DNA of 64,000 nucleotides from Desulforamulus ruminis DSM 2154 (GTDB lineage Bacteria; Bacillota; Desulfotomaculia; Desulfotomaculales; Desulfotomaculaceae): contig NC_015589.1 in the NCBI RefSeq assembly GCF_000215085.1, positions 1,984,001 to 2,048,000 of the forward strand. Reading direction: 5' to 3'. Made by a program: the position numbers and the translations under genes. The stretch's first letter is position 1, and each line of letters starts with the position of its first letter. This document shows, piece by piece, positions 4,010 to 57,865 of this stretch. Below the pieces are notes generated by a model. That model had not been told where the DNA came from, did no database searches, and was given only the letters and a program-made list of their open reading frames with translations.

Positions 4010-4161
4010 TAATATGACCTCCTTCTTCCTTGCAGTTTATATTTCAATATATGGATTGGTTGGGTCATTTGTGAAGAATGCGGAAAGATTCCCATTAAGA
4101 AGCATTTGCTTACATGTTTCATTCCTTTTTGGAAAAACTACCATTCCATAGGAGGGATAAA

Positions 4162-40624: not shown

Positions 40625-41755
40625 ATGCGGCTTAATTCAACCACCTCTTTAATCGTAAAAACCATCCCCGGAATTCTTCTGATGTTTGCCGTGGCGGTTC
40701 TGGCCAAGGGAGGAGAGGATTTCGGTTTTCACTGGCGGGGGCTGGAGGATTTCTTTGGGGCCAATCCGGTAACCAAAACCGTTTTAATTGACGCCTTCCG
40801 TCTAAATTACGTCCTGCTGTCCATTCTTATCGGTATGCTTATCGGCAACCTGATCATTCTCCCGGGTTGGCTGTTAGCGGGAATATCAACCTCCCGTCTG
40901 TTTATAAAATCAGGCGTTATTCTTCTCGGCTCTTTATACAGCTTTGCGGATGTGGCCAGTTTAGGGGGAACCGCCATCCTTCTGGTACTGACCTTTGTGG
41001 TGCTGACACTGATATTCACCCTGTGGCTGGGAAGCAAACTGGGGATGGACCCCGCCTCGGCAGCCGTTTTATCTGCCGGGACTTCCGTTTGCGGTGTCTC
41101 GGCCATTGTTGCCACAGCGCCTGCGGTAAGAGCCAAAACAACGGATGTGGTTTATTCCATTGCCACCATTCTTTCCTTTGGCGTGGCCTCCATCTTTATT
41201 TTTCCGCTGGTAGGCACTTTGGCAGGTTTTACGCCCCATCAATTTGGCGTTTGGTCGGGAACCGGCATACTCAGCTCCGGACAGGTGCTGGCAGTCTGTC
41301 TGGCTTTTGACCCGGGAACAGTCAGCCACGCTTCCGTTAGCTTAAAAACCGGTGAAATATATAATCTTACCAGGGTATTATTCCTTCCCTTTGTGGTCCT
41401 GGCCCTGGCCACCTATACCAGCCGTACCGTACAACTGCCCGATGATCATATTAATGTTCATACCGGTCTGTGGGGAAAGTTTCCGGTCTTTGTGTTGGGC
41501 TTTCTGGCCATGGTCTTGTTCACTTCCCTAGGTCTCTTCGGCCAAACATCGCCGCCATCCCCTGAGTTAACGACCATACGCAAATTATACAGTTGGTTTT
41601 TTGCCATTGGTTTAGCCGGTCTGGGGATGCAGATCTCCTTTTCAGAATTAAAAAAAGCCGGTGGTAAGCCCCTGGTGGTTGGTTCCACCGCGGCCCTGCT
41701 CAAAGCGATCGGAGCCTTAATTATTGTGTATCTTTTCATTCCGGGACAACCCTGA
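40625..41755 (+). CDS. YeiH/UPF0324-family putative sulfate exporter (first copy)
   Basis: 376 aa, with about ten hydrophobic helices. The conserved family blocks LNYVLLSILIGMLIGN, SAGTSVCGVSAIVATAPAVRAK and GTGILSSGQVLAVCLAF are all present. The family is annotated as putative sulfate exporter, a role based on limited evidence. A GGGAGAAG site precedes the ATG. A 46-aa single-helix protein follows 15 bp after the stop. A second paralogue is at 51720-52793. Confidence 0.85.
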   Translation: MRLNSTTSLIVKTIPGILLMFAVAVLAKGGEDFGFHWRGLEDFFGANPVTKTVLIDAFRLNYVLLSILIGMLIGNLIILPGWLLAGISTSRLFIKSGVILLGSLYSFADVASLGGTAILLVLTFVVLTLIFTLWLGSKLGMDPASAAVLSAGTSVCGVSAIVATAPAVRAKTTDVVYSIATILSFGVASIFIFPLVGTLAGFTPHQFGVWSGTGILSSGQVLAVCLAFDPGTVSHASVSLKTGEIYNLTRVLFLPFVVLALATYTSRTVQLPDDHINVHTGLWGKFPVFVLGFLAMVLFTSLGLFGQTSPPSPELTTIRKLYSWFFAIGLAGLGMQISFSELKKAGGKPLVVGSTAALLKAIGALIIVYLFIPGQP

Positions 41756-41770
41756 TATTGAGGTGATGGT

Positions 41771-41911
41771 ATGAAAAAAAAGGAGGACCAGGACCAAAAA
41801 AACCCCTTTGAATCTCGTTCCATCTCGCTTTTTACCACCGAGCGAATGGAGGACTATGCCGCATTATCCCTGGTACTGATCATTATTATTCTGTTGCTGG
41901 TATTGCAATAA
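41771..41911 (+). CDS. 46-aa single-helix mini-protein downstream of YeiH-family gene
   Basis: Begins MKKKEDQDQKNPFESRS, a charged cytoplasmic part, then MEDYAALSLVLIIIILLLV, one C-terminal transmembrane helix. GAGGTGATGGT precedes the ATG, 15 bp after the exporter stop. The same plan (charged N-terminus, a final hydrophobic helix) appears after the second YeiH gene, so a structural or regulatory subunit of the exporter is likely. Too short for normal gene calling. Confidence 0.72.
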   Translation: MKKKEDQDQKNPFESRSISLFTTERMEDYAALSLVLIIIILLLVLQ

Positions 41912-41968
41912 AAGTTTTGTAGCTGTGGCAAAAATAGCCCTTCAAAAAACTGCAGATAACCCAAAGGA

Positions 41969-42068
41969 AATAGAACACAGATTAAACGGAGATAGGGATT
42001 CTCATGGATTTTAAATTTTATTAAAATCCGTGAGAATCTGTGTAAATCCGTAAAATCCGTGTTCTATT
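41969..42068. repeat. 100-bp palindromic intergenic repeat element
   Basis: The ends AATAGAACAC and GTGTTCTATT are inverted repeats. An inner stem pairs ATTCTCA and GGATTTTAA with TTAAAATCC and TGAGAAT. The text is made of shuffled ATCCGT, GATTAA and TCTGTGT units typical of dispersed bacterial intergenic repeats. It probably forms one long hairpin and could be a MITE or REP-type element. Confidence 0.65.
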
Positions 42069-42161
42069 ATTTTGGTAATAGGGATAATACCAGCGAAGCT
42101 TAAACCAGGGGCAATTGTTAGACAATTAATAATTAATGAATACTTCCATGTGGTCGCCCCT

Positions 42162-42211
42162 ATAAAGGTACCGCAAACATTTTAACGTTAAAATGTTTGC
42201 GGTACCTTTAT
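42162..42211. repeat. 50-bp perfect palindrome
   Basis: Both arms are 25 bp with no loop, centred on AACGTT between 42186 and 42187: ATAAAGGTACCGC, then AAACATTTTAAC, mirrored exactly. With the repeat at 41969-42068 it fills the 581-bp non-coding gap before the secreted protein. Such uninterrupted palindromes are unstable in most hosts, so its retention is notable. It may act as a terminator or a recombination scar. Confidence 0.8.
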
Positions 42212-42492
42212 TAAGCCAACGGTTTGAATTTTTACAATATTTTAACATATTTTCGACAATATTTTCCAATAAATTCGAGACTTAATATTTTATAATTAAC
42301 ATATAAGATTAGAGGTAATCTATAATTTAAATAAAAAAATACCTGCTAATCTAGTTTGATAATGAAGTGGGGTGATTAATTAAATATATTAATAAGTTGT
42401 TTAACACTCCATAAAACGATAATAACTACGAGGTTAAAGGCTGGGAGCATCCTGTAAAATTCTATTTTACTAAAAACACGGGAGGCGTAAAA

Positions 42493-43302
42493 ATGAAAAA
42501 ATTATTGGCTGTTTTATGTCTGTTAGGATTACTATTGTTATCATCTGTACCTGCATTCGCAGGCACAGATACTGGTAAAGATGCCGAAGGTATTTTAACA
42601 AATTACCTGAATGCAATTGTTAATCAGAATGTTGATGAAATACTTACTTTAGTTATAGATGAGCGCTATTCGTCCGATGGTTCTCAAAAAGAAGAGTATA
42701 CCCATTTTCTTGAAGAAAAGAAGCTAATTGATTACAAAATTAAAAAAATGTCCCAAGAGTCACCGACTCAAATAAATTTCGAGACAATTTTAACATTTGA
42801 TAACGGAAGCATTGAAAGAGTACCCATTGTACTTAAAAATGATAAATCCTGGAAAGTTTTTATTAACGAAAAATCATTAGAAAAAAACTATGAAGTTATT
42901 CAAGAAGGGAATCAAAAAATAGTAACTAAGCCGCAAGAAATTTCACCACAAGCAACTACATTAGTATCTTGGAGTTTTACTAACCGAGGGGGTGGTGCCG
43001 TTTTCTATTCAAATAATTCATTCAATATTAGCGGATCAACCGCAACATTAGCAAGCGTAACCCAAACACACGATTATGTAAACTTAGGTTGGCCTGTTGG
43101 AATTACCTATGCCATTGTTAAAAAAGGAATTCTTGGAGATTCTATGTGGGGGCAAAGATATCTTAGTGGAAGCATATCAAATCCAGTAAGTGTAAATGTA
43201 TCGGGATCCGGCAGTTATACAGGTGCACAAGTAAGATTCACAACTGATATAGGTAATACAAGCAGTATGGGATACAGGGGATCTGGATCTCTCACCCAGT
43301 AA
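42493..43302 (+). CDS. Secreted protein of unknown function
   Basis: 269 aa. Signal peptide MKKLLAVLCLLGLLLLSSV with a cleavage site AFA|GT. The region at about residues 30-140 (DAEGILTNYLNAIVNQNVDEI) looks like an NTF2/lumazine-binding-type fold. The C-terminal half is Ser/Gly/Asn-rich beta-type sequence ending in GYRGSGSLTQ. AT-rich codon use matches the accessory island and not the flanking genes. CGGGAGGCG precedes the ATG. A decayed copy of its own 3' end follows it. Confidence 0.7.
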   Translation: MKKLLAVLCLLGLLLLSSVPAFAGTDTGKDAEGILTNYLNAIVNQNVDEILTLVIDERYSSDGSQKEEYTHFLEEKKLIDYKIKKMSQESPTQINFETILTFDNGSIERVPIVLKNDKSWKVFINEKSLEKNYEVIQEGNQKIVTKPQEISPQATTLVSWSFTNRGGGAVFYSNNSFNISGSTATLASVTQTHDYVNLGWPVGITYAIVKKGILGDSMWGQRYLSGSISNPVSVNVSGSGSYTGAQVRFTTDIGNTSSMGYRGSGSLTQ

Positions 43303-43389
43303 CGGGATCCAGAAGTTATATAGAAGCACAAATAAGATTCATACTGATGGATAATATAAGCAGTATGGGATCAAGGGATTCGGATATCT
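43203..43389 (+). repeat. Decayed tandem duplication of the secreted-protein gene 3' end
   Basis: The segment 43203-43290 (GGGATCCG...GGATCT) recurs as 43304-43389 with many substitutions and small indels, a 101-bp shift. Matching blocks include AGCAGTATGGGAT in both copies. The second copy lies after the stop codon and is non-coding, so a once longer repeat protein may have been cut by a stop. Confidence 0.75.
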
Positions 43390-43450
43390 TACTATGAGTA
43401 ATTAAACCTTACACTCTAATATGTAAGAATAGAAAGTTCTGATTTATATG

Positions 43451-43492
43451 GAACTGACACCGTTTTTTTAAATTGGTGTCAGTTCTGTTTTG
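43451..43492. terminator. Hairpin between the secreted-protein gene and the FtsW-like gene
   Basis: GAACTGACACC pairs perfectly with GGTGTCAGTTC around a T-rich loop. It is followed by TGTTTTG on the plus strand and lies between two convergent genes, so it can serve both. Confidence 0.6.
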
Positions 43493-43548
43493 AGTTGAAT
43501 CGACGTGATGAGTGGTGGATTTCGACAGGTGAAACTGTACATTGCAAA

Positions 43549-44835
43549 TTATTCTATTGAAGTTAAAGAATGTATTTTTTCCCGTCGATAGACACTTAAG
43601 ATTAGGCCAACAATCGTTGAATAAAAGATTAATTGTACCCCACCATAACTTATAAATGGTAGTGGTATACCAACGTAAGGTAAAAGACCAATAGACATTA
43701 ACATGTTTATAAGGAGGGAGATTAAGAATATTGTAAAACCACCAATAACAATAAATTTCCCATAATGATGACGTGTTTTAATCGCAACCTGAACCATACG
43801 AACAGTGAAAAATAACAAAATTCCCGTTAATAATAGACCACCTCCCCATCCAAAAAAATAAGTAATATAAGGTAAAATAAGATCTGTATGTGCTTCTGGT
43901 AATCTAACTTGTTCATGAATATTTCCTTGACCTAACCAACCTGCTTTTGCTATCATCTCTCTTGAGATAGAACTATGATAGGCGAATGTATTCTTATATT
44001 GTTCAGGATGTAAGAAGGCTAAAAGTCTTTCCTGTTGGTATGGTGATGAGAGGAAAAATAATACTGTCGATAAAATAAGTCCAAATGCTGAAGTGCTCCA
44101 TGTGAATTGCCGTCGTTGGCCACTGTTTATCTTCTCTATATTTATTAGAACAAGAATGGTAATGAAATAAATAATCGAATATAAATAATATCCGTTCCAT
44201 AAATAGAGTAACATGGGAAGCCAAAACAATAAGTGAAGTATAATTATATGGTATTTATTCCTATGTTGTAGAATGCTTGACCATGAAATATAAAACAGTA
44301 GTAGCGAAAACATATAATCAATCTTAATGTATCCGATATGCCACATCTTTTTTCCTTGAAAATCCAAGCCAATCATTCCAATCCAAAGCATCATCACTAC
44401 TGAACTTATATAAAGAAAAAAACCTAACTTTTCTAGCTTTCGATAATCATAAAACATTAAACTGATAATAATAATCATTGCTATAAGACTGAATATTACC
44501 TTCTTCATAAACAATCCTTCAAATATAAAAGATAAGGTATACATTGGAACTAAGCTAATACCTATAATGGTAGTAACTAGAAAAATGAGTGCCCAGTCAA
44601 TCCTCGGGCGATGTAGCTGGTTCATCTCTTTTCCGAATGTAATAGGATTCCCCATTTGATTGATTGTTTTTTTATCTGCTTCTTCTTTAGTGAGTCCATC
44701 TCTTTGATACGATTGGCTACGACTTTCGATATGATTAATGATCTCATACTCAACTAAGTCTTGAGCTTCTTTTGATTTTATTTGTGCTTTAACTTTGTCA
44801 ATAAAAGATTGTAGTAGAGGATGTTTTTCGTTCAT
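43549..44835 (-). CDS. FtsW/RodA/SpoVE-family membrane protein with N-terminal HAAS-like domain
   Basis: 428 aa. The first ~75 residues are soluble and helical (ending GNPITFGKEMNQLHRPRID), resembling the small HAAS/DUF1700-type domain found next to PadR regulators. About ten helices follow, with FtsW-family landmarks HPEQY near the centre, SREMIAKAGWLGQG, AHTDLILPYI and GIPLPFISYGG. FtsW/RodA proteins are SEDS glycosyltransferases; here the usual partner PBP is absent. It overlaps padR by one base. Low GC and an ECF sigma/PadR pairing point to a transferred, Bacillus-like module. Confidence 0.8.
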   Translation of the reverse strand: MNEKHPLLQSFIDKVKAQIKSKEAQDLVEYEIINHIESRSQSYQRDGLTKEEADKKTINQMGNPITFGKEMNQLHRPRIDWALIFLVTTIIGISLVPMYTLSFIFEGLFMKKVIFSLIAMIIIISLMFYDYRKLEKLGFFLYISSVVMMLWIGMIGLDFQGKKMWHIGYIKIDYMFSLLLFYISWSSILQHRNKYHIIILHLLFWLPMLLYLWNGYYLYSIIYFITILVLINIEKINSGQRRQFTWSTSAFGLILSTVLFFLSSPYQQERLLAFLHPEQYKNTFAYHSSISREMIAKAGWLGQGNIHEQVRLPEAHTDLILPYITYFFGWGGGLLLTGILLFFTVRMVQVAIKTRHHYGKFIVIGGFTIFLISLLINMLMSIGLLPYVGIPLPFISYGGVQLIFYSTIVGLILSVYRREKIHSLTSIE

Positions 44836-45266
44836 TATGCAGGCCCTCCTTCAAACCTCACCCTGGATATCAATGCAATTTTTTCTTTTTTATTCGCCAG
44901 CGAAACAATCCATCTTCCTTTAGATGTTAGTGAATAATATTTACAATTTTTATTATTAATTTTTTTCCACTCGGAACAAAGAATACCCTTGTTCTCAAGT
45001 CGATGTAGGAACGTATATAAACCACATTCCTGTTCTTTAAAGGTGCAATCACCTTTTTCTTGTAGAACATTGAGGATTTCAAAACCTGTCATAAACCGCC
45101 CGTGGAGTGTATGCAATAGAAGTAAAATAATCCCATCCCGATTTAGTTTCTCTTTTTTCGTTTTGATTGTTTCATTAACTGCTTTGCGCCTATCTTCAGA
45201 GAAAACAAAATTTTTAAATACATTGTTATTTAAATTCTCTTTTAATCCATTTAGCCTATGTTCCAT
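44835..45266 (-). CDS. PadR-family transcriptional regulator
   Basis: 143 aa. The wing-helix PadR core has LNRDGIILLLLHTLHGRFM, FEILNVLQEKG and the basic wing CGLYTFLHRLENKG, then KYYSLTSKGRWIVSL. The first 40 residues are an extra basic helical arm. PadR members usually repress the adjacent membrane gene. Lies between an ECF sigma factor and an FtsW-like gene in one minus-strand operon. Confidence 0.82.
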   Translation of the reverse strand: MEHRLNGLKENLNNNVFKNFVFSEDRRKAVNETIKTKKEKLNRDGIILLLLHTLHGRFMTGFEILNVLQEKGDCTFKEQECGLYTFLHRLENKGILCSEWKKINNKNCKYYSLTSKGRWIVSLANKKEKIALISRVRFEGGPA

Positions 45267-45268
45267 TT

Positions 45269-45814
45269 TTAATCCTCCTGGTATAAGATCTCTTTTAGTA
45301 ATTGTCTTGCTCGTTTTAAACGTGTTTTCACTGTATTTTCATTTACCTTGAGTGCTTGGCTAATTTCTTTTATTGAAAAATCTTCATAATAATATAAGTA
45401 AATGACTTCTCTATATTTGATTTTAAGCTGAAATACTGCTTCAACTAACTCCTCATCCTCATCTTTTTTAATAACTTCTTCGTCCACTTGATGGTTCGAA
45501 AATAAAAGTAGTTCAGTTATTTTGTCGTTAACGGTAACTTTACGATGGTGCCAGCTTTTCAAATAATCTTTACAATGATTACTAGCAATCCGATAAAGCC
45601 ATGTTTTTACGTTTGCTTGCTGTTTGAAAGAATCTAAATGCCTAAAACACTTGATAAAAATCTCCTGAGCTAAGTCTTCGGCTTGAGATAGGTCTTTAAC
45701 ATATGTATAGGCCAATTGAAGTATGTCTTTTCCATATTGAATCATTATAAAATCAAGTGTTTCTTCTTTTTCTTTATCCGTTTCATATGTAATAAGTAAA
45801 CCTGTTTCCTCCAC
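45269..45814 (-). CDS. ECF sigma factor
   Basis: 181 aa. Region 2 has DLSQAEDLAQEIFIKCFRH and VKTWLYRIASNHCKDYL; region 4 has YREVIYLYYYEDFSIKEI and NENTVKTRLKRARQLLKE. GTG start with AAAGGGGTGATG upstream. No classical anti-sigma factor with a zinc motif is present; the HAAS-FtsW protein two genes downstream is the only membrane protein in the operon and may take that part. Confidence 0.88.
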   Translation of the reverse strand: MEETGLLITYETDKEKEETLDFIMIQYGKDILQLAYTYVKDLSQAEDLAQEIFIKCFRHLDSFKQQANVKTWLYRIASNHCKDYLKSWHHRKVTVNDKITELLLFSNHQVDEEVIKKDEDEELVEAVFQLKIKYREVIYLYYYEDFSIKEISQALKVNENTVKTRLKRARQLLKEILYQED

Positions 45815-45875
45815 GCTTCATCACCCCTTTTTGCATTCATACAATTAGACGACCCTCAAAGTCAGATGGTTTTAT

Positions 45876-46757
45876 TGACCCCCGGAAAAGATGCACACAT
45901 AAAGGAGTAAGATAAAATGAGCGAACAAAAGGATATCAAAACGAAAATAAACGGTGACAGCCAAGCACAAAGCTAGTTTAGTCCTGGACATTATCAAAGG
46001 CAATACCACTGTCGCCCAGGCAGCAAGGGACTATGATTTAACCATCATTGGGGTAGCCGATGCCATGGCCGGGATGGAAAATCAACTGAAGGCAAGACCC
46101 AAGGATATAGCTCCAACAGTACGAATCAGAGATTAAAGAATTACGGTCGAAAGTTGGGGAGTTGGTGCTGCAAAATGATGTTCTAAAAAAGCTCTCCCGC
46201 CTACCGGGATCTGGGTCCAACGAATAAAGAGCTTGCGGGCGGTATACCAGAAAAAGGGCATTCTTATTCTTACAACTAAGATCTGCAAATGGCTAAAATC
46301 TCCCGCCGTACTTTTTACTACAGGTCTGTCCGTAAGCCAAAGAAAGCGGATGAAGCTCTAACCGAGCAAATCCGTCAGTTAATTCAAGCCTTTTCTACCT
46401 GCGGCTATCGCCGTTTGATAGTATTTAGAAGAAATCTTCTAAATGAAGGGTTGGCAGGTCAGAAAGAGCCTCTGAGGGACCTCGAGTAAAATCGAAGCGT
46501 TCATCCAGTCCGTTTAGAAACCGTCGCTGGGCTACAGATATGGCCATGATTTGGTGTGGGAAAGACCATGGTATCATATTGCCATCATCATTGACTGTGC
46601 CAGCCGGGAGATATAGGGAATGCCAAAGAAGCTCATGCCACTTAGAAAGAAACTCTTATTCAACGCTTTGGCCATGTGGGGTCATGTGCCAATCACTGGT
46701 CTTCGTAGTGAGTACATATGGTAGTTATGAGCCATCTTCGGACTTTAGGGAATAAAG
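45876..46757 (+). pseudogene. Decayed IS3-family transposase
   Basis: A left end TGACCCCCGG (45876-45885) is followed by orfA-like sequence (KASLVLDIIKGNTTVAQAAR, then a coiled region IKELRSKVGELVLQNDVLKK) interrupted by a frameshift and a stop near 46226. An orfB start follows (MAKISRRTFYYRSVRKP) and fragments RRWATDMAMIW and AIIIDCASREI of the DDE domain in different frames. No right inverted repeat is visible. The element cannot be active. It separates the ECF module from the sensor genes. Confidence 0.75.
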
Positions 46758-46802
46758 AGGTGGAAGAGGAATTAATAAATGAGTATGATTTGATCCCTCA
46801 AA

Positions 46803-46955
46803 ATGCCTAATTCAACGGAAGCAAATCATCGTTTTATTAAAAATCTTGAATCAATATTAATAAGTGTTAAATATAAAGCTAATAACTTCAAAGAAACAAA
46901 TGAATGCTTAATCTTAGAAAACATGATTGGAGATATTTTAACGAAGAGATGTTAG
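46803..46955 (+). CDS. 50-aa ORF of unknown status beside the IS remnant
   Basis: Reads MPNSTEANHRFIKNLESILI and ends GDILTKRC. Composition is coding-like, with Lys/Asn/Ile-rich sequence, but there is no good ribosome site. It could be the tail of another broken gene in the island. Confidence 0.25.
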   Translation: MPNSTEANHRFIKNLESILISVKYKANNFKETNECLILENMIGDILTKRC

Positions 46956-47076
46956 TGATGGAGGAAAAATTATAAGATATAAAAAGGAGAAATTGTTGCA
47001 ACTTTGCAATATGCTGGGGAAAAAGCAAATAATAATTGGATGTACAGTTTTTTTATAAATTTGGGCAGCATTGTGC

Positions 47077-48561
47077 TTAAGCCCGGGAAATGCCATCCTG
47101 AGAACCGTCAAAGGAAGAAGTTAACAGTACCACCAGGGTGCCTGCGTAGATTCCGTCATCATCATAAACCGGCGCAATTTCACAGGCTAGACCCGAAGCA
47201 GGGAGTTCCGATCTTTTAATTTCTCCCGAATCAATTTGATTATAGATCAGTCCTGCCAACTCCTGATCCACTACCTCGATGCTGGTTCCCTTATTGATAT
47301 TTCCCAGATAACATTTGGCCATTAGGTTAACAAAGGAGATCTCGTGGTTTTTATCTACGTAAAGAATCCCTTGGGGAAGCATGTCAATCAATTTGTCCAG
47401 TACCTTAAAACTGGCGCCTTCTTCATTGGCGAAAACCCGGATAACCGTTAGAGATCCCAAAATCCGATTCTTTTTGATGATGGGGGAATGGATTGCCTTT
47501 AACAGCTTATCCTTAAATCTTAAAGTAATGGTCGAAGATTTTTCCTTATTATCTGCTTGGTAATTGCCAAGAATTTCTTTTAGTTGTACATTTCTTAAAT
47601 TGTTTTTTCTATCGGCGAAAAGAATATGGGCCGCCTCATTGGCAAAAATAATTCTTCCTGAGTTGTTGGCCAGAATAACCCCTTCATTAATCTGATTAAA
47701 AATAGCAAAATCAATATTTTCAAAGTAAGTTTTAGAGCTGTTTACCCCCCAAAACTCAACCAGCAACTGGTAGAGACAGGCGTACAGGGCAAATACCAGC
47801 ACCAAAATGGTGATAGCCCGGTAGGTTTCAAAATTATTTTCTTTGGTAAAAAAATACACCTTCCAGGGAGCCTGGTCAATCTGAGCAGCCGTTATATTAT
47901 AGCGGGTATTGTTAAAATAAAAATCCTCCTGCTGATTGCTGAAGGCAGCCAGGGTTTCCTTGGGAAAGGGCCACAGAACAGGGTAGTTTCCCCGGTCAAA
48001 GACGGCAATTTCATAATGATCATCTAAAAACTCCTGGGTCATTTCCTTTTGGTACCGGTCAATACGGAAACTGATGGCCAAGACCCGATCCAGCGAACCC
48101 CTTGCGTCCTTAAGAGGCACCACAAGGCTGGTCACATAATAGTGAGTGAGGGAATCCAAATAAATATCCGATATCCAGATTTGATTGGTTTTTTGTTGTA
48201 AAACCTGCCGGGCCAACTGCTCAATAAAGTCGTTTTCTTTAATTCCGGAAGCAGAATCAAGAATACCGCCCTGGTTGGCCAAATACACATTGATAATGCG
48301 ATCGTCATAGGAAGAGATGGCCTCCAGGGTCTGCCGATCACTGCCTTCTTCGATTTTCCTGGCCCCGTTGCTGGATACCGCCTTTAACTCTTCAAGAAAC
48401 AGGTTGGTTTTATTGATGGCGACTTTCTGCAAGCTGCCCTGGTATTCGTCTAAAATATTTTTGGTGTGCCGGAACTCCATAATGCCAAACAAGATAAAGA
48501 TGCTGATAAAAAAAATCAGCACAAACATCACAAAAATGTTTTTAGAGGGAGACTGTCTCAT
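47077..48561 (-). CDS. Membrane sensor with Cache-like and PAS domains, no output domain
   Basis: 494 aa. Two transmembrane helices bracket an extracytoplasmic region of about 230 residues (Cache-type). Two PAS-like domains follow (FAIFNQINEGVILANNSGRI and LIDMLPQGILYVDKNHEISF). The protein ends in GISRA with no kinase, cyclase or AAA domain. Either it signals through a partner or the 3' end was lost; the IS3 remnant begins 320 bp beyond its stop. It is the last gene of the minus-strand set that also encodes a NarL-type pair. Confidence 0.7.
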   Translation of the reverse strand: MRQSPSKNIFVMFVLIFFISIFILFGIMEFRHTKNILDEYQGSLQKVAINKTNLFLEELKAVSSNGARKIEEGSDRQTLEAISSYDDRIINVYLANQGGILDSASGIKENDFIEQLARQVLQQKTNQIWISDIYLDSLTHYYVTSLVVPLKDARGSLDRVLAISFRIDRYQKEMTQEFLDDHYEIAVFDRGNYPVLWPFPKETLAAFSNQQEDFYFNNTRYNITAAQIDQAPWKVYFFTKENNFETYRAITILVLVFALYACLYQLLVEFWGVNSSKTYFENIDFAIFNQINEGVILANNSGRIIFANEAAHILFADRKNNLRNVQLKEILGNYQADNKEKSSTITLRFKDKLLKAIHSPIIKKNRILGSLTVIRVFANEEGASFKVLDKLIDMLPQGILYVDKNHEISFVNLMAKCYLGNINKGTSIEVVDQELAGLIYNQIDSGEIKRSELPASGLACEIAPVYDDDGIYAGTLVVLLTSSFDGSQDGISRA

Positions 48562-48591
48562 ATAAAACCCTCCAGGATTCTTTCTAGCACA

Positions 48592-49206
48592 TTAAATAAG
48601 TCCTTTTTTCACGGCCGTGGTAAGGGCCTCTTCAACGGAAGAAACGTTCAGTTTGGCCAGAATGTCCCTTAGCCTTCGGCGAAAGGTAGAGAGGCTGATA
48701 AAAAGACTGCCGGCAATCTCCTTTTGGTTTTTTCCACTGGCCAGGAGCTGCAGAATATGAAGGTCGGTCTCCGACAGTCCGGGATCGGCTAAATTCAGCA
48801 GCGTATTGGTGCTAAGACCCGGATAAAGATAGGTTCCACCCCGATGCGTCATGAGCACGGCGGCCCGGATCTCCTCAAAAAAGGCGTATTTGGGAACAAA
48901 ACCTTTGATGCCGCATTCCATGGCCTTTTTAATAAAGATGGCATCATCATAAGTAGTCAGAGCCACATGCTTAATATGAGGATATTTCTCTTTGATCTTC
49001 CCGGCCAACTCAATCCCATCGCCGTCGGGAAGTCCGATATCCAGCAGGATGACATCAATATCCTTGGTTAATATGTCCAGGGCCTCTCGGCAGGAACCGG
49101 CCTCTGCAACCACGGCCATATTTTCCTCAAGCTCCAAAAGCTTTTTTAAGCCTTCCCGAAAAACATTATGGTCTTCAATCAACATGATCCTGATTTTTTT
49201 CATCAT
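48592..49206 (-). CDS. NarL/FixJ-family response regulator
   Basis: 204 aa. Receiver with MLIEDHNVFREGL and phosphoacceptor D in VILLDIGLPDGDG, then LuxR-type HTH LSETDLHILQLLASGKNQKEIAG. GGAGG lies upstream of the paired ATGs. It overlaps the kinase gene by 32 bp, so they form one two-component system. Confidence 0.9.
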   Translation of the reverse strand: MMKKIRIMLIEDHNVFREGLKKLLELEENMAVVAEAGSCREALDILTKDIDVILLDIGLPDGDGIELAGKIKEKYPHIKHVALTTYDDAIFIKKAMECGIKGFVPKYAFFEEIRAAVLMTHRGGTYLYPGLSTNTLLNLADPGLSETDLHILQLLASGKNQKEIAGSLFISLSTFRRRLRDILAKLNVSSVEEALTTAVKKGLI

Positions 49207-50806
49207 CCTGGCCTCCTGGTATTGGGACCGTTAACATAACGGAAAATCCCGAATCATTGGATGCAAAAACAACGTTTCCCCCAATTAAATGAGCCCGTTC
49301 CTTCATGCCCCACAAGCCGTTGCCTACGGCAAACTCTTCTCCGGCACCGCCATTATCGACAACCTCAATCTTTAACTGATCCTTGTCCACTGTAAAAACA
49401 ATGTCTACTTCACTGGCCTTGGCGTGCTTGGCGATATTGGTCAAGCTCTCCTGAATAATACGGTAAATAATAATTTGATCCTTTTTTTTAATCCTGAGGG
49501 CCCGGTCCTGATAAAAAATATAGACCTTAATATTATTTAACTCTTCAAAGGTGGCAATATAGGATTCCAGAGCCGAAATTAAGCCCACTTTATCAATGAG
49601 ATAGGGGTGAATGTCGTTCATGATCCCCCGCATTTCAATGGCGGCATTTTGACAGTGGCTGCGGAGATTCATCAGGCTGTCCAGCAATTCGGGTTTTAAT
49701 CCGCTATTTTTATTTAAGCGCAAAATATAATCCAGAGAATGAATGATGGTAGACATATACCGGCCAATCCAATCGTGAATTTCAATGGAAATCCTCTTTC
49801 TTTCCTTTTCCAGGGTATCCAATAAAAGGGGTTTTTCCTTTTGCCTATGGGCTAAATTGGCCACCAGCATAACGCCGGACAAGCGATTAAATAAAAACAA
49901 CGGAATGTAATCAATCACCATTTCAATAGTACGCCCGTCCCGGTTAAAGGACACCTGTTGACCAAGGAAACTCTTTTCCCGGACCCTGGCGTGCAAAAGG
50001 GGTTGAGTAATCCCTTGTAATTTAGGGAACAACGAGGGAAACTCTTGGACGTTTTTTTGCAGCACGCTTTCAGGCAAAATATCAAATAATTCCTGGGCCG
50101 CCCTGTTGATATGGCGGACAACCCCCTTGCGATCCATAAAGATGGAAGCGCTTTGAATTTGTTCGGATAACCGGCTCAAATACAACCTTTGCACTAGAAT
50201 CGGCTTAAACAGGGTATAGAAAAGCCAAGGCATTAACAGCAAAAGCATCAGCAAAATAAATAAAGCCAATAGGATTCTTTCGTTCATTTGCAGGATGGTA
50301 TTTTTAATGGAATCATCCATATTACGACTGGTGGTAACGGTAATCATATTTAATTTTTTTTCTATTTCCTGAGTAAATTGCTGGTTGCGCAGATGAATAT
50401 ATTTTAAGTCTTCCTGGGTGTAAGATTTTGCCTGAATCAATGGAATGGCTTCTTTTTCCATAAAGGAAATGTAGGATTTGTTTAATTCAATGAGCTCCGT
50501 CATGTTTTGTTTATAAAAGGAATTTAAAGAATCGTTCAATTCAAGTTCCTTTTGGAGGGCCAGGGAACTATATTTTTGGAATTCATCCAAGTAATGCTGG
50601 TCTGAATATAAAATATAATCTTGTGCATGATCCATCATCTCAGAAATACAGGAAGACAAATCATTTAAATGGGAATATTTTGTATTGTTTAGTTCTATAT
50701 CATGAATCTGCTGGGAAGTTTTTAATAAATAATGGAACAGCAGGACAGAGGCTAAAACAAAAAGGAGCATTATTGCAATCATTGCTTTTAATAAATTTTT
50801 ATTCAT
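49175..50806 (-). CDS. NarX/DesK-type sensor histidine kinase
   Basis: 543 aa. N-terminal helix, a four-helix-bundle-like periplasmic segment (SCISEMMDHAQDYILYSDQH), second helix, PAS-like domain (IQSASIFMDRKGVVRHINRAA), HisKA_3 with the phosphorylated His in KERKRISIEIHDWIGRYM, and HATPase with GNGLWGMKERAHLIGG. It is the partner of the overlapping NarL-type regulator. Divergent from the 51-kb YeiH locus. Confidence 0.9.
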   Translation of the reverse strand: MNKNLLKAMIAIMLLFVLASVLLFHYLLKTSQQIHDIELNNTKYSHLNDLSSCISEMMDHAQDYILYSDQHYLDEFQKYSSLALQKELELNDSLNSFYKQNMTELIELNKSYISFMEKEAIPLIQAKSYTQEDLKYIHLRNQQFTQEIEKKLNMITVTTSRNMDDSIKNTILQMNERILLALFILLMLLLLMPWLFYTLFKPILVQRLYLSRLSEQIQSASIFMDRKGVVRHINRAAQELFDILPESVLQKNVQEFPSLFPKLQGITQPLLHARVREKSFLGQQVSFNRDGRTIEMVIDYIPLFLFNRLSGVMLVANLAHRQKEKPLLLDTLEKERKRISIEIHDWIGRYMSTIIHSLDYILRLNKNSGLKPELLDSLMNLRSHCQNAAIEMRGIMNDIHPYLIDKVGLISALESYIATFEELNNIKVYIFYQDRALRIKKKDQIIIYRIIQESLTNIAKHAKASEVDIVFTVDKDQLKIEVVDNGGAGEEFAVGNGLWGMKERAHLIGGNVVFASNDSGFSVMLTVPIPGGQDDEKNQDHVD

Positions 50807-50941
50807 TAATAGGTTTCTCCAAAAAAATTGAGATTTTTTATAAATCCTATAACAACATAATTATATAAAAGACAATAACATATACACATTCGACATGAAT
50901 TTTAAATTTCCTTTATCTTGCATAAGCAATTAAGCTTTTAG

Positions 50942-51038
50942 TCCATTTTAATGGATGTAATAGCAATGACAACCAATTGGTCGTTAAAATGACACAAAAA
51001 TAATCAGGGAAATGACACTTTTATGTCATTTCCCTGAT
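50942..51038. promoter_or_regulatory. Three dyads in the divergent control region
   Basis: TCCATT-TT-AATGGA (50942-50955), ACCAATTGGT (50972-50981) and a 15-bp inverted repeat ATCAGGGAAATGACA/TGTCATTTCCCTGAT (51003-51038). The first two look like operator half-site pairs, the last like a strong hairpin without a T-tract. This 357-bp gap between the kinase and the next gene contains nothing else but a promoter. They may be targets of the NarL-type regulator. Confidence 0.55.
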
Positions 51039-51066
51039 AGGTAAGTTTCAGATGATTCTTAACTCG

Positions 51067-51095
51067 TTGACCAGTTTGGATCAAAATATTAAGAT
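51067..51095 (+). promoter_or_regulatory. Promoter for the second YeiH locus
   Basis: TTGACC (51067-51072), 17-bp spacer, TAAGAT (51090-51095), downstream of the dyads. Confidence 0.55.
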
Positions 51096-51163
51096 CAACT
51101 TGATACTAAATGTACAATCATTTTACTCAAGACCAAACGCACAAAAAGCTGGAGGTGTGCCGG

Positions 51164-51634
51164 ATGGAAGCCAATACCTGTTTTGTTGCCCTTGAAAAAA
51201 AAGAAAAATTAGTAAAATGGTACGGCTGGATTGTAATTTTGTTCATTTGTATGACACCCCTGGTCATTGTGCTGCTGCCCAAATTAATGATTAATGTGAA
51301 CCGCATTCATTCGTTATTAAAAAATTCCATCGTTCCGGAAACCGCGGTCTTAGAAGGGCAGGTGACGCATTATTGCTGGAACCGTGTCAATGATGGCGGG
51401 TTGGTTTCCATCGAAGGGGAGATGACCGTAACTTCTAAAGAAAATAAAACCGTTCAATGTCTTTATAAAAAATATGTAGGGCCCAATTGGCAGCAAATTC
51501 CGGATTTTTTACCCTCGCATCAACTTTATCTCACAGGTTCCTTTCAGGATGACGGTGTTTTTCAAATTGCCAGCGCCAGGAATTTATCCACCCAACAGAT
51601 GTATACCACGAAACCGGTGGTTTCTGTGTACTAA
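51164..51634 (+). CDS. 156-aa single-span membrane protein, unknown family
   Basis: A short cytosolic start (MEANTCFVALEKKEK), a hydrophobic helix (WYGWIVILFICMTPLVIVLL) and an extracytoplasmic domain with VSIEGEMTVTSKENKTVQCLY and LTGSFQDDGVFQIASA. The start ATG 51164 has GGAGGTG at 6 nt; the longer ATG 51110 has no site. It precedes the YeiH-family gene by 85 bp, so it may sense or support that exporter. No family recognised. Confidence 0.65.
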   Translation: MEANTCFVALEKKEKLVKWYGWIVILFICMTPLVIVLLPKLMINVNRIHSLLKNSIVPETAVLEGQVTHYCWNRVNDGGLVSIEGEMTVTSKENKTVQCLYKKYVGPNWQQIPDFLPSHQLYLTGSFQDDGVFQIASARNLSTQQMYTTKPVVSVY

Positions 51635-51719
51635 TCCTTTAAATCATGGGGAAGGAGGTTTGTGTTCTTCTTAGGAGGGGATTCTCTAAAATTTGTTAAA
51701 ATAACTGGAGGTGTTCAAT

Positions 51720-52793
51720 TTGGCACAAACTCAAATCGGCCAGGCCCAAAGTGAAAGTCTGAGCGCCCAGATTACCAAAGCCATTCCCGGCCTGATTCTT
51801 GTTGTTTTGGTTGCCATTTCCGCCACCTGGGCGGAAGGGTTGATTAAAGAAAATTTTAAGAAAATTTATGAAATTGCTCACCTTAATTATGTTTTACTAG
51901 CCATTATTTTTGGTATGATTATTCGCAACACAGTGGGGGTTCCTTCCGTGGTGGAACCCGGTTTAAAATACTCAACCATTTTAACGAAAACCGGTATTGT
52001 TGTGATGGGTACCAAGTATACCTTGGCTTCCTTGGCTAAGGTGGGTACTACCAGCATGATCTTTATCACGGTAACCCTGTTCGGCACGGTCGCTTTAATG
52101 TTCTGGCTACGCAAGCGTTTTACCATGAGCGACTCCCTGGCTGGCTGCCTGGCTTCCGGCTTCGCCGTTTGCGGTGTTTCCGCTTGTGTGGCCACCGGTC
52201 CTGCCGTAAAAGCAAAGGGCCAGGAAATGTGCTACACCATTGCCACCATTTTAATCTTTGGTTTACTGGCTTTATTCACCTTCCCCATGCTGGGTCATTT
52301 GTTTGGCTTAACTGAAAATCAGTTTGGCGCATGGGTTGGCGTAGGGATTGTAAACTCCGCCCAAGTTCTGGCGGCCGGTATGGCCTACGGCCAGGATGCC
52401 GGTTTGATGGCGGGTATTTATAACATGGGACGTGTAGTGTTACTTCCCTTTGTGGTTCTCTATGTTGTTATGATGGTGCTGAAAAACGACAGTAAAGCAG
52501 CCGGAGAAATTAACAAGAGCCAATTTATCATGGACAAGTTTCCGGTATTTATTGTGGCCTTCCTAGTGGCCGTTCTGGCCAATACCATGGGCATGTTTAG
52601 TAAGGAAGAAGTGGAAATGGCCAACAAATTCATGATCTGGGCCTTTACCCTGGGTTTTGCCAGCATCGGCTTAACCACCAAGTTCTCCGATATGAAAGAT
52701 GCGGGCAAAGACGGAATTATTCTGGGCTTTATCGTTGGCCTGGCCAAAGCAGCCTTTGCCCTTATTGTGGTTAAATTCTTCCTTCCCTTATAA
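51720..52793 (+). CDS. YeiH/UPF0324-family putative sulfate exporter (second copy)
   Basis: 357 aa, about ten hydrophobic helices. Family blocks LNYVLLAIIFGMIIRN, SGFAVCGVSACVATGPAVKAK and GVGIVNSAQVLAAGMAYG match the first copy closely in pattern. TTG start 6 nt after GGAGGTG; the ORF extends 9 nt further upstream without a better site. A 41-aa single-helix protein follows. Different promoter regions suggest the two exporters are induced by different signals. Confidence 0.85.
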   Translation: MAQTQIGQAQSESLSAQITKAIPGLILVVLVAISATWAEGLIKENFKKIYEIAHLNYVLLAIIFGMIIRNTVGVPSVVEPGLKYSTILTKTGIVVMGTKYTLASLAKVGTTSMIFITVTLFGTVALMFWLRKRFTMSDSLAGCLASGFAVCGVSACVATGPAVKAKGQEMCYTIATILIFGLLALFTFPMLGHLFGLTENQFGAWVGVGIVNSAQVLAAGMAYGQDAGLMAGIYNMGRVVLLPFVVLYVVMMVLKNDSKAAGEINKSQFIMDKFPVFIVAFLVAVLANTMGMFSKEEVEMANKFMIWAFTLGFASIGLTTKFSDMKDAGKDGIILGFIVGLAKAAFALIVVKFFLPL

Positions 52794-52824
52794 TCCATTT
52801 TAATATTAACGGGAGGTGTCCGGC

Positions 52825-52950
52825 ATGACCGAGAAAGACCAATGTGCTGTTGAAGAAAGCAGAGCAGCGGACCGTAAGGTTAGAAAACAGGATTATATGG
52901 TGATTAGTCTTGGACTGATATTATTAGTACTGGCTAAAATAATGGCATAA
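52825..52950 (+). CDS. 41-aa single-helix mini-protein downstream of second YeiH-family gene
   Basis: Begins MTEKDQCAVEESRAADRKVR (charged), then DYMVISLGLILLVLAKIMA, one C-terminal helix. A GGGAGGTG site precedes the ATG, 31 bp after the exporter stop. The layout equals the 46-aa protein after the first copy, though the sequences are not obviously alike. A terminator follows. Confidence 0.75.
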   Translation: MTEKDQCAVEESRAADRKVRKQDYMVISLGLILLVLAKIMA

Positions 52951-52962
52951 CGTGAAAAATAG

Positions 52963-53012
52963 ATTTGGCAGGACCGGGTGAAAATAAGCCCATCCTGCCA
53001 AATTATTTTAGA
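52963..53012 (+). terminator. Terminator of the second YeiH operon
   Basis: ATTTGGCAGGA pairs with TCCTGCCAAAT, with an inner GGG/CCC, followed by TATTTTA. Confidence 0.75.
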
Positions 53013-53028: not shown

Positions 53029-53472
53029 ATGTATAATAACATTTTAATCGCTATACAGGGTGAAGAGGGGCCGCAATTTTTGCAGAAAGCCTTGGAACTA
53101 ATTCATCCGGCCCAGGGAACCATCACCATACTGCATATTAAAGAAACGGGCTTAACCCATTATGGTTATGTAGACCAACTGGCCAGTTCCATCAGCAAAG
53201 AACAATTTATTGATTATATTCATGAACTGGCGGAAAATCAGCAAAAGAAAATACAAGAACAGATAATAGAGCAAGGGGACCGATGGAATCTAAATTTTGC
53301 ATGGAGGGTGAGGGAGGGGAGCCCGGCCCAAGAGCTTCGTAAAGAGGTGGCAGCGTTAAACTATGATCTGCTGATTCTTGGGACAAAACCCAAGGCTCCC
53401 GGCAACACCTCCAGCAAAGTGAAGGAGGCCATGCTGAAGGTTTTTGACGGGTCAATTTTAATTATTAAATAA
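53029..53472 (+). CDS. Universal stress protein (UspA family)
   Basis: 147 aa. Starts MYNNILIAIQGEEGPQFLQ and ends with the C-terminal pattern VFDGSILIIK of UspA folds; the ATP loop GTKPKAPGNTSSKVKEA is present but not the classical G-2x-G-9x-G(S/T). TTAGGAGAG precedes the ATG. Likely a small nucleotide-binding stress or signal protein linked to the transporters around it. Confidence 0.78.
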   Translation: MYNNILIAIQGEEGPQFLQKALELIHPAQGTITILHIKETGLTHYGYVDQLASSISKEQFIDYIHELAENQQKKIQEQIIEQGDRWNLNFAWRVREGSPAQELRKEVAALNYDLLILGTKPKAPGNTSSKVKEAMLKVFDGSILIIK

Positions 53473-53549: not shown

Positions 53550-53589
53550 ATTCACATCAAATACTTAACGGTGGAACGAGGGTATGGTT

Positions 53590-53823
53590 ATGAAACGAAT
53601 CATTCATCATCCCATGTTGTTCCAATTCCTGCAATATCTTATGAAGGCAATTCCCTGCCTTTTGCTCTTTATCTTGTTTTATTGCATCGCGCACTTGTAT
53701 AGTCATGAAAATGCCCTGGTTTTAATCCCGCTGGGAGCCAGTTTTATTGTACTTTATACTTTTTGCGGAGAGCTGGAAAACGAACAAGCCAACCGGGAGC
53801 AAAACTCCCATGAGAATGAATAA
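53590..53823 (+). CDS. 77-aa two-helix membrane protein
   Basis: MKRIIHHPMLFQFLQYLMKA, then two hydrophobic stretches (LLLFILFYCIAHL and LVLIPLGASFIVLYTFCGEL) and a polar tail. ATG 53590 lies 7 nt after GAGGG; ATG 53584 is too close to it. Sits 145 bp before the AbrB-type gene. No family recognised. Confidence 0.6.
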   Translation: MKRIIHHPMLFQFLQYLMKAIPCLLLFILFYCIAHLYSHENALVLIPLGASFIVLYTFCGELENEQANREQNSHENE

Positions 53824-53967
53824 ATTTTTTTACAAACCACCCAACCGGTGGTTTCATTGTTTTTATAATTTCTTGGTAATTTTATAGGGAATATTGAAGT
53901 AAACAAAGAAATGATAAAGACAGGGTACATTTTTATTAAATCAGAATATCCGGAGAGAACGATCCTG

Positions 53968-55080
53968 ATGGACAAATACCTTGATACTAAAAAAAGAACC
54001 ACTCGAGTCTTTATTACTCTGATAACCGCCATCACCGGAGGAATTGCATTCAAGTTGCTGCATCTGCCGATTCCCTGGCTGCTGGGACCCATGATTGCCG
54101 TTTTAATTGGCTCCAAAGTGTTTAAAGGGTATTATGAGTGGCCGGGCCAGGCCAGAAACGCAGGAATGATTATCGTCGGCTATACCATTGGGCTGTCCAT
54201 GACATCCGCAGCCCTGCAGGAAATATCCCGTCAATTGCCCATCATTTTGCTGATGACGCTGCTTCTTTTGCTTATGTGCACGGGCATTGCTTTTGTTGTA
54301 TCCAGGCTGTCGGGAAGTGATTATAAGACGGTGCTGATGGGAAGCATCCCCGGAGGCATGACGCAGATGATTGTCCTGGCGGAAGAAACCGAGGGCATTG
54401 ACATCACGGTGGTGACTGTTCTTCAGGTAATCCGGCTGATGATGATCATCATTTGTATTCCTTTGCTCATTTTCAACCCCTTTTTTGGACAACAGCACCA
54501 TGCCGCTGCGGATACCTCCATGGTCTCCGGTTTCTTGCTTAACTGGGGCGATTTGTTTCCCAACCTGTTTATTTTTGCCCTGGTTTGTATCCTGTGCGCC
54601 TGGCTAGGGAATAAAATCAAATTACCCACTGCTTTCCTGCTGGGACCGGCCATTGGTACGGCCATCCTGCAAATATACGGGCTGAACGGGCCGGCGCTGC
54701 CATCCCCGTTGATTAACGGGGCCCAATTGCTGATCGGTACTTACATCAGTTTATTGTTGAAACCGGATCAATTAACCCGCAAGTTTCGGACCATCTCCCT
54801 GGCCATAGGGAGTGGTTTGGTGCTGATTTTAGGCTCTTGGGGATTCAGCCTGCTGCTAACCCAATTCCAGCCCGTATCGGCATCCACCAGCTTATTAAGC
54901 CTCTCTCCCGGGGGCATGGATCAAATGGGCATTATCGCCCATGAAGTTCACGCCGATCTTTCGATGGTGGCCGGCTATCAATTGTTCCGCATGTTTTTCA
55001 TTTTTTTTGTTGTGCCCCCTTTGTTAAGGATGATCATTCAATATGACTTAAAAAAACGGAGAAAACCGGCCAGGGAATAA
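53968..55080 (+). CDS. AbrB-family membrane transporter
   Basis: 370 aa, two repeated halves of about five helices each. Family motifs GGIAFKLLHLPIPWLLGPMIA, SIPGGMTQMIVLAEE and SLSPGGMDQMGIIAHE are visible (the two GGM-x-QM repeats). AbrB members are predicted ammonia-monooxygenase-associated or organic-anion transporters; specificity is unknown. ATG 53968 follows GGAGAG; the upstream ATG 53911 lacks a site. A UspA-type gene follows. Confidence 0.8.
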   Translation: MDKYLDTKKRTTRVFITLITAITGGIAFKLLHLPIPWLLGPMIAVLIGSKVFKGYYEWPGQARNAGMIIVGYTIGLSMTSAALQEISRQLPIILLMTLLLLLMCTGIAFVVSRLSGSDYKTVLMGSIPGGMTQMIVLAEETEGIDITVVTVLQVIRLMMIIICIPLLIFNPFFGQQHHAAADTSMVSGFLLNWGDLFPNLFIFALVCILCAWLGNKIKLPTAFLLGPAIGTAILQIYGLNGPALPSPLINGAQLLIGTYISLLLKPDQLTRKFRTISLAIGSGLVLILGSWGFSLLLTQFQPVSASTSLLSLSPGGMDQMGIIAHEVHADLSMVAGYQLFRMFFIFFVVPPLLRMIIQYDLKKRRKPARE

Positions 55081-56452: not shown

Positions 56453-57535
56453 CTAATGTCCGGAACTCTCCGCATACCGGGTATCCACCCTTTGGCCCCG
56501 CTTGTAGCGGGCAATATACCCGAGAATCATGACCACACCGGCAACCGCCCCGGCATAAAGGGCAATGGTAGCCGTAGTATCCAATGCATGGGTGACCCCG
56601 GATGAAAAATTAGTCATGTGCAGATTGTTCAAATAAGTTGGAATGGCAAAGGCTCTGCTGACGGCAGACATACCGATTACAACAGCCATGACCAGCTTAA
56701 TTTGCAGTTCTGAAACCATTTTGGTGGCATTGGCTCCGATGTTCAGCCCCAGCAGGGAACCCAGGTAAAGCAGCAGAACCAAGCGAATGTCCACAAAACC
56801 GTTTAAAGCATACTGAAAAGCACCGGAAGCCCCGGAAAAGATAGCCAGAAACAGTTCTGTGCCGGCAGCAACCGTTGTGGGGATGCCCAGGATATAGATC
56901 ATGGCGGGAACCCCAATGAAACCGCCCACGCCTACCGTACCGGCCAGCCATCCGGTAGCCAGTCCGATGAGGGCGATAAACCAGAGGGATACGCGAACAT
57001 TGGCCACCTTAAAATAAATCATCGGAGGGATATTTAACTTTGAAATCTTCTCCGACAGACAGGAAGATTTAGCCGCCTTCTTTTTCTGATCCGTCCTGAA
57101 AATATCTCTTAAAATAAAGACGGCCAGCCCCGACAGTAAAATTACAAAAACCACACTGATATAAAGGTTCGATCCTTCCTTGCCCATATGATCCAGGATA
57201 TACTCATTTAAAAATACGGCCAGATTAACGCCAAGTAAAAGGAATGCAATCATGCAAATACCCAGCTTGGCATCTACGTTGCCCATCTTAGAATGTTTTC
57301 TTGCTCCAACCATGGCCTTGCCAAACTTATGGGCGAGGTTTGAACTGACTGCGGCAATGCCCGGAACTCCCAGAGACATCATGCCGGGCGTCATGATAAA
57401 GGCGCCTCCGCTGCCAATAAAACCGCTTAACATGCCGCCCAGAAATCCCAGTCCGGCGATTGATAAGGCTGTCTCCGGAGTGATATCGACAAATTTCATG
57501 ACTTCTCCTACCAAATTAACCGCTTCACCAGCCAT
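56453..57535 (-). CDS. TauE/SafE-family sulfite/anion exporter
   Basis: 360 aa with about eight helices. Family landmarks GLGFLGGMLSGFIGSGGAFIMTPG near the start and GLATGWLAGTVGVGGFIGVPAM in the second half, the two inverted repeats of the family. TauE/SafE members export sulfite, sulfoacetate or related organic sulfur anions. It is second in an operon read from a sigma54 promoter. Confidence 0.88.
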   Translation of the reverse strand: MAGEAVNLVGEVMKFVDITPETALSIAGLGFLGGMLSGFIGSGGAFIMTPGMMSLGVPGIAAVSSNLAHKFGKAMVGARKHSKMGNVDAKLGICMIAFLLLGVNLAVFLNEYILDHMGKEGSNLYISVVFVILLSGLAVFILRDIFRTDQKKKAAKSSCLSEKISKLNIPPMIYFKVANVRVSLWFIALIGLATGWLAGTVGVGGFIGVPAMIYILGIPTTVAAGTELFLAIFSGASGAFQYALNGFVDIRLVLLLYLGSLLGLNIGANATKMVSELQIKLVMAVVIGMSAVSRAFAIPTYLNNLHMTNFSSGVTHALDTTATIALYAGAVAGVVMILGYIARYKRGQRVDTRYAESSGH

Positions 57536-57550: not shown

Positions 57551-57781
57551 CTAGTGACTGCTTTCCAGTCCAAGTAAACCCAGCAAATAAGACACGGCTG
57601 TACCGTACAGAAAGGCGATGCCGATGACGGTGCCCAATAGGCATAGAGCCGGAACAAAAGCCTTACTTAAAAAGTACTGATTTAATTGCTCGATGTTCAT
57701 GAAAACGGTAAGGTACGCGCAAACGGCTAAGGCCAGAAAAATCAAAGTCTTAACCAGACCGGGTTTCGATGTATCTTTCAT
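57551..57781 (-). CDS. 76-aa two-helix membrane protein, first gene of the sigma54 operon
   Basis: MKDTSKPGLVKTLIFLALAV, a second helix (ALCLLGTVIGIAFLYGTAV) and a short tail. ATG 57781 has GGAGAG at 7 nt; TTG 57787 is too close. It precedes the TauE-type gene by 15 bp and is probably a partner of it. Unrecognised family. Confidence 0.7.
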   Translation of the reverse strand: MKDTSKPGLVKTLIFLALAVCAYLTVFMNIEQLNQYFLSKAFVPALCLLGTVIGIAFLYGTAVSYLLGLLGLESSH

Positions 57782-57865
57782 AAGCAATCTCTCCTTTGTA
57801 AATTAACGAACAAGGTGCTTAAAAAAAATTCTTCCCTCCTTTATTTGTGAATTTGCTCTTTATAT

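Follow-up and report, generated by a model that had tools for sequence, protein, structure and literature searches.

What is the relation of a one-helix mini-protein to the large membrane exporter behind whose gene it is encoded? The question is raised by a 64,000-nucleotide stretch of the Desulforamulus ruminis DSM 2154 genome (contig NC_015589.1, positions 1,984,001 to 2,048,000, forward strand; hereafter the window), in which two paralogous exporter genes of the PF03601 family, E1 and E2, are each followed by a mini-open reading frame (mini-ORF), s1 and s2. Comparison of their sequences leads us to propose that s1 and s2 are very probably detached subunits of split, elevator-type exporters of the CPA/AT type, corresponding to TM0, the N-terminal helix that long PF03601 paralogues carry within the exporter chain itself.

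All four genes lie on the + strand. E1 (40625..41755) encodes 376 aa, and s1 (41771..41911; 46 aa, core TERMEDYAALSLVL) begins with an ATG 15 nt past its end, behind the Shine–Dalgarno sequence GAGGTG (41760..41765). E2 (51720..52793) encodes 357 aa and is followed after 31 nt by the ATG of s2 (52825..52950; 41 aa, core RKVRKQDYMVISLGLILLV), with GGAGGT at 52812..52817; both cores contain the invariant Asp discussed below. A preliminary description of the locus had reported good ribosome sites and the layout common to both mini-proteins, a charged N-terminal half and a single C-terminal hydrophobic helix, and we find the same. It had also placed the exporters, which are 36% identical to each other, in the YeiH family. 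Both pass PF03601 (Cons_hypoth698, the putative sulfate exporter (PSE) family) with 195.2 and 211.2 bits against a gathering cut-off of 24.5, over positions 1-303 of the 304 in the profile, but they remain under the cut-off of the YeiH subfamily TIGR00698 (NCBIfam; 123 and 135.5 bits against 232.6), and a maximum-likelihood (ML) tree places them outside the E. coli YeiH branch with a support of 98. E2 is 89% identical to its D. putei counterpart, and the source genome has four PF03601 genes in all, the other two encoding a 442-aa copy (L003/L061) and a copy of ~496 aa (L062). No curated Pfam or NCBIfam model matches s1 or s2 above its cut-off, the best being MacP with 15 bits against 45.

Both mini-ORFs are conserved as coding sequences. 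Among loci of the order, a follower ORF, defined as a Shine–Dalgarno-led frame of 28-65 aa with a C-terminal helix and at most 60 nt downstream, stands behind 43 of 81 PF03601 genes and behind none of the 238 other genes of at least 200 aa that served as controls. In the relatives retrieved, it accompanies 26 intact genes of the E1 branch and 13 orthologues of E2, with median gaps of 18 nt for s1 and 35 nt for s2. Both are under purifying selection: the ratio of nonsynonymous to synonymous substitution (dN/dS; NG86, unsaturated pairs) has a median of 0.30 for s1 and 0.15 for s2, and is below 1 in 94/94 and 28/28 pairs, respectively. The preliminary description had named in advance two outcomes that would speak against it, a lack of such ORFs in related genomes and a lack of coding-type conservation, and neither is what we observe. 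The notion that the mini-ORFs are chance ORFs, decayed exporter ends or products of stop read-through can thus practically be dismissed. It draws on the fact that E1 and s1 share a frame in the window, with TGA codons between them, but across relatives the frame of the mini-ORF relative to its exporter is mixed (11, 9 and 7 over the 27 s1 loci, and mixed too over the 13 s2 loci), on which ground a read-through fusion of E1 and s1 was rejected; the control genes and the dN/dS values well below 1 speak against chance and decay. The short gap together with the mixed frame argues that s1 and s2 are separate genes.

Linkage to the exporter is equally consistent. Across 60 whole genomes, s1 has 28 strong matches (E<1e-13), every one of them at an exporter gene. 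The lone seeming exception, in genome G046, is explained by a transposase gene that has inserted into the E1–s1 gap; the pair is split over two contigs (L086 and L250), whose ends share 535 identical bases, and the transposase is IS110-like in appearance. As the s1 and s2 profiles were seeded with ORFs first found beside exporters, linkage is partly a product of construction. Evidence independent of this comes from the whole-genome s1 scan, from mini-ORFs upstream of exporters recovered with a TM0 profile and from mini-ORFs in archaea.

Although the preliminary description regarded the two mini-proteins as different in sequence, profile comparison shows that they are homologous to each other (hhalign 73%, E 3e-5) and to TM0. 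The latter carries the motif [EK]D[WY]xAhxLG, with an invariant Asp, and a helix of this ED[WY]W type is found in all long PF03601 proteins with an intact N terminus; two of the TM0-bearing long paralogues are encoded in the source genome itself. As a control for the general likeness among membrane helices, we slid a window along the alignment of the long proteins: s1 matches the TM0 window with 84%, whereas the best unrelated window reaches 1.5%, and the corresponding values for s2 are 52.5 and 4.7. A TM0 family profile gives 93% (E 3e-7) for s1 and 84% (E 8e-6) for s2. When the s1 profile was run over 17,365 six-frame ORFs, the matches ranking below the s1 proteins themselves were mostly mini-ORFs that precede another PF03601 class (L031, L077), N termini of the long proteins, and s2; a few chance matches were interspersed. 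The Asp, which precedes the helix, is 100% invariant in sets A1, A2 and A6, in which Gly or Ala is the commonest residue at position +7 (70-100%). In the mini-proteins it is the helix that is conserved; the charged, presumably cytoplasmic tails differ both in how long they are and in their sequence.

TM0 occurs in three arrangements, namely fused at the N terminus, as an ORF of 30-60 aa that immediately precedes the exporter gene, or as an ORF directly downstream as in the E1 and E2 orthologues. In a phylum-wide scan of 299 genomes, the TM0 profile finds it either fused, within ORFs of ~430-600 aa, or upstream of PF03601 genes, where the ORFs measure 31-57 aa, and all nine new upstream mini-ORFs that were fetched stand at PF03601 genes. 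Two of the upstream mini-ORFs have no NCBIfam family and a third has sub-cut-off matches only. The fused form extends beyond the phylum, to a full-length long relative in Caballeronia with a KTEDWWAVWIG helix (50.7% identity), and a Sphingobium protein that aligns over residues 1-438 may carry it as well. When the bacterial upstream mini-ORF profile was compared with 1,477 ORFs from plasmid loci, the top matches (E 5e-6, 2e-5 and 1e-3) adjoin haloarchaeal exporters on their upstream side, and the TM0 of a Hymenobacter protein is also among them. At seven haloarchaeal plasmid loci the exporter gene is immediately preceded by a small ORF. Three of these ORFs, ending in IPW, score clearly and two score at E about 1-3, while the Haloarcula GH36/Halomarina type (DRGWKA), which is likely homologous to TM0 as well, was not recovered at threshold by this profile.

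The distribution follows a division of the family into two branches. In a tree of 173 cores, the 58 canonical members sit together (support 99), and in all 58 neither the helix nor a mini-ORF was found. Nearly all of the 115 non-canonical cores have TM0. Most exceptions are cases of a contig end, of the inserted transposase gene in L086, of what looks like a frameshift in L056 or, in L027, of a long stop-to-stop frame. In an ML tree of 79 proteins built from the core only, with TM0 left out, its presence or absence changes once, on a branch with a support of 98. One branch of PF03601 thus has TM0 in essentially every exporter, be it fused, upstream or downstream, and the other, which includes E. 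coli YeiH, is without it. This gives partial support to the general rule of small membrane subunits for anion exporters put forward in the preliminary description: it holds, and in a wider form than guessed there, with the helix separate or fused, for one branch of PF03601, but not for all YeiH/UPF0324 proteins (0/58 canonical members), nor for anion exporters generally. On the same tree the four arrangements need four changes, and the upstream form occurs in three places, which fits an old detachment, although support is weak at the root and at several deep forks. We regard it as an evenly balanced proposal that half of PF03601 consists of two-component transporters with a tiny second subunit that has escaped notice. 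The detached helix, shared by bacteria and archaea, would be the older state; a single later fusion would have produced the long proteins, and in sulfate-reducing Firmicutes the helix would have shifted downstream.

A PDB sequence search with E2 found no relative. The E1 model (predicted local distance difference test (pLDDT) score of 85) matches NapA (4bwz; Z 14.7, 268 residues aligned, 3.9 Å) and CitS (5xat; Z 13.3, 282 aligned). Helical bundles require a Z above about 13, which these values just exceed, but the matches are nearly all CPA/AT-type transporters, and the predicted E1 structure can be assigned to this fold. The cores of E1 and the long paralogue both match CPA/AT transporters (NapA, CitS, SbtA and NHE); fold searches with the long protein align mainly the core, residues 88-442, and barely cover TM0. 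In the AlphaFold 2 (AF2) model of the long paralogue (pLDDT 87), TM0 is a helix at residues 17-37 with a pLDDT of about 94. In a model of E1 joined to s1 (pLDDT 85, predicted template modelling score 0.83), s1 forms a helix at residues 406-427 with a pLDDT of about 87; the joint may be topologically false, because the C terminus of E1 is expected outside and the N terminus of s1 inside. A mini-protein that is co-encoded, tiny and endowed with a conserved packing face could also be a helper in assembly or insertion, needed for the exporter to fold but missing from the finished transporter. This is improbable, given that the long proteins retain fused TM0 in the mature chain and that it is predicted there at such high confidence.

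We propose the following for how such a split exporter might work. The mini-protein would be translated from the mRNA of its exporter and insert so that the charged tail faces the cytoplasm and the C terminus lies outside. Its small-residue face (Asp0, Ala/Val+3, Ile/Leu+4, Leu+6, Gly/Ala+7) would then dock on the scaffold domain of the exporter and complete a secondary exporter that belongs to the CPA/AT superfamily, works by the elevator mechanism and would need the mini-protein for activity. For E2 and s2, a shared transcript is compatible with a strong hairpin 3' of s2 (52956..53009, + strand; -25.9 kcal/mol, z -6.1), which resembles a terminator and would make s2 the last gene of the transcript; it was revealed by folding and is not listed by a consensus terminator scan, and folding gives no comparable hairpin behind s1.

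The cargo is probably sulfite arising from dissimilatory sulfate reduction. The source genome encodes DsrA, which makes the organism a sulfate reducer by genotype, and among 60 relatives PF03601 is present in 42/48 DsrA-positive and 1/12 DsrA-negative genomes (p 4e-7, a statistic that ignores kinship). In Salmonella, resistance to sulfite depends on YeiH (PMC12880088), and a further study (PMC11582611) discusses sulfite export as the role of SuyZ and of Hyphomicrobium YeiH. A cysteine dioxygenase family gene, which points towards sulfite too, adjoins a PF03601 member in Microvirga. Taken together, these observations make sulfite export a likely role, to which we give about even weight for E1 and E2 themselves; the cargo may alternatively be sulfate or another small anion.

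Several observations weigh against this picture. Some s2 matches lack an intact exporter, in that the one in G039 has an internal deletion and G049 has none nearby, and L175, on a long branch, belongs to the TM0 branch without a recognisable TM0. TM0 is short and profile scores are correspondingly modest, the archaeal members reaching 16% and 1% against s1 and s2. The long proteins carry a second extra helix after TM0 which is absent from E1 and E2. The E1–s1 model was joined artificially, with TGA read as Trp, and confidence in its helix says nothing on docking. The tree comes from a short search, the relatives are not independent, and the p value of the DsrA association ignores phylogeny. 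Finally, linkage alone is also compatible with single-helix regulators that alter exporter activity or turnover depending on conditions, like AcrZ, SgrT or MgtR-type peptides. Small proteins that regulate transporters form an established class (PMC10710835), matched here in size, lone helix and separate translation, and the variable cytoplasmic tails beside a conserved helix are what a regulatory tail might look like. A constitutive part of the transporter is a better fit to a helix that the long paralogues carry in permanently fused form and that occurs in essentially every member of the branch, and the mini-protein is encoded beside the exporter rather than elsewhere. We therefore consider a regulator unlikely and, from linkage and the fused homologues, infer that s1 and s2 are subunits.

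The s2-like mini-ORF of G049 (L247:3589-3759, +) has YeeE-like genes, identified by eye, on the opposite strand and is an orphan or has been re-used. In the window, genes for a PAS protein, a NarL-type regulator and a histidine kinase lie between E1 and E2 (47077-50806, -), a placement kept in L066, and likely regulate the pair. A universal stress protein gene (53029..53472, +; PF00582, E 4e-10) neighbours the E2–s2 unit, and one is also found 3' of s2 in several genomes, as at L066 and L249. Downstream of it, a 79-aa hydrophobic ORF (53584-53823, +) precedes an AbrB-type (PF05145) membrane protein (53911-55080) and is possibly another small partner. The preliminary description had extended its rule to the TauE gene (56453-57535, -), 15 nt upstream of which lies a gene for a 78-aa protein (57551-57787, -). 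The pairing is of another kind, for this protein, which has relatives in 14/41 genomes, has two hydrophobic stretches and is unrelated to TM0.

Other PF03601 classes have small followers of their own. Behind the ~490-aa paralogue with fused TM0 lies s3 (L062:2703-2867; G000:C1:2640702-2640866, -; 55-58 aa, motif P[IV]EKKLI.YSLGLGI), a small partner of a second kind that reaches other families of the phylum. It has no NCBIfam family, and a common origin with TM0 is unsupported (15% at best, with no preferred window), the ~490-aa paralogue already having a fused TM0. A class of ~590 aa is followed by another unnamed partner, a protein of 90-103 aa whose single hydrophobic helix is N-terminal and whose tail is similar (about E.G...GAF[WF]; L095, about 4104-4412, +, and L073, L099 and L056). 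In the Haloarcula plasmids (L268, L274), two genes for UxaA-family hydrolases lie behind the exporter; their size resembles that of SuyA/SuyB, and they may be SuyAB.

Exporters of the PF03601 family occur widely and are linked to sulfite, which is toxic. Should one branch depend on a partner of 30-60 aa, small enough for gene callers to miss, expressing or reconstituting the large protein alone would fail or mislead. Our finding names the missing part and provides a sequence signature for annotating it: the haloarchaeal upstream mini-ORF is unannotated at two plasmid loci and, at a third, annotated in one strain and missed in a near-identical one (L268, L274). The natural fused and split pairs also offer a way to probe an extra scaffold helix in elevator transporters.

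KdpF, AcrZ and CydX are small single-helix proteins that are co-encoded with, or act on, a large membrane protein, and s1 and s2 resemble them as one-helix mini-proteins co-encoded with a large membrane protein. To our knowledge, none of the three is the detached form of a helix that paralogues within one exporter family carry fused. In the open-access literature we found no prior description of a free-standing TM0 mini-protein, upstream or downstream, in bacteria or archaea. YeiH of E. coli and Salmonella (TIGR00698), whose function in sulfite stress has been demonstrated in Salmonella (PMC12880088), shares the Pfam family and predicted fold of E1 and E2 but belongs to the other branch, which is without TM0 or a mini-ORF, whereas E1 and E2 fall below its subfamily cut-off. 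Another PSE-family protein, like E1 and E2, is SuyZ of Paracoccus pantotrophus (Rein et al. 2005, cited in PMC11582611), which is re-interpreted there as a probable sulfite exporter; a haloarchaeal member of our set lies beside the two UxaA-family genes mentioned above. A further comparison is with the PSE family as described in passages of Sudha et al. (2021, PMC8396727), which distinguish the topological forms PSE_1 and PSE_2 and already describe the extra N-terminal helices of one form; these passages do not mention mini-ORFs, or the first extra helix as a separate upstream or downstream gene. E1 and E2 belong to this family, s1 and s2 match the TM0 of its PSE_2-type long proteins, and, compared with that form, E1 and E2 would hold TM0 in trans, and they lack the second extra helix.

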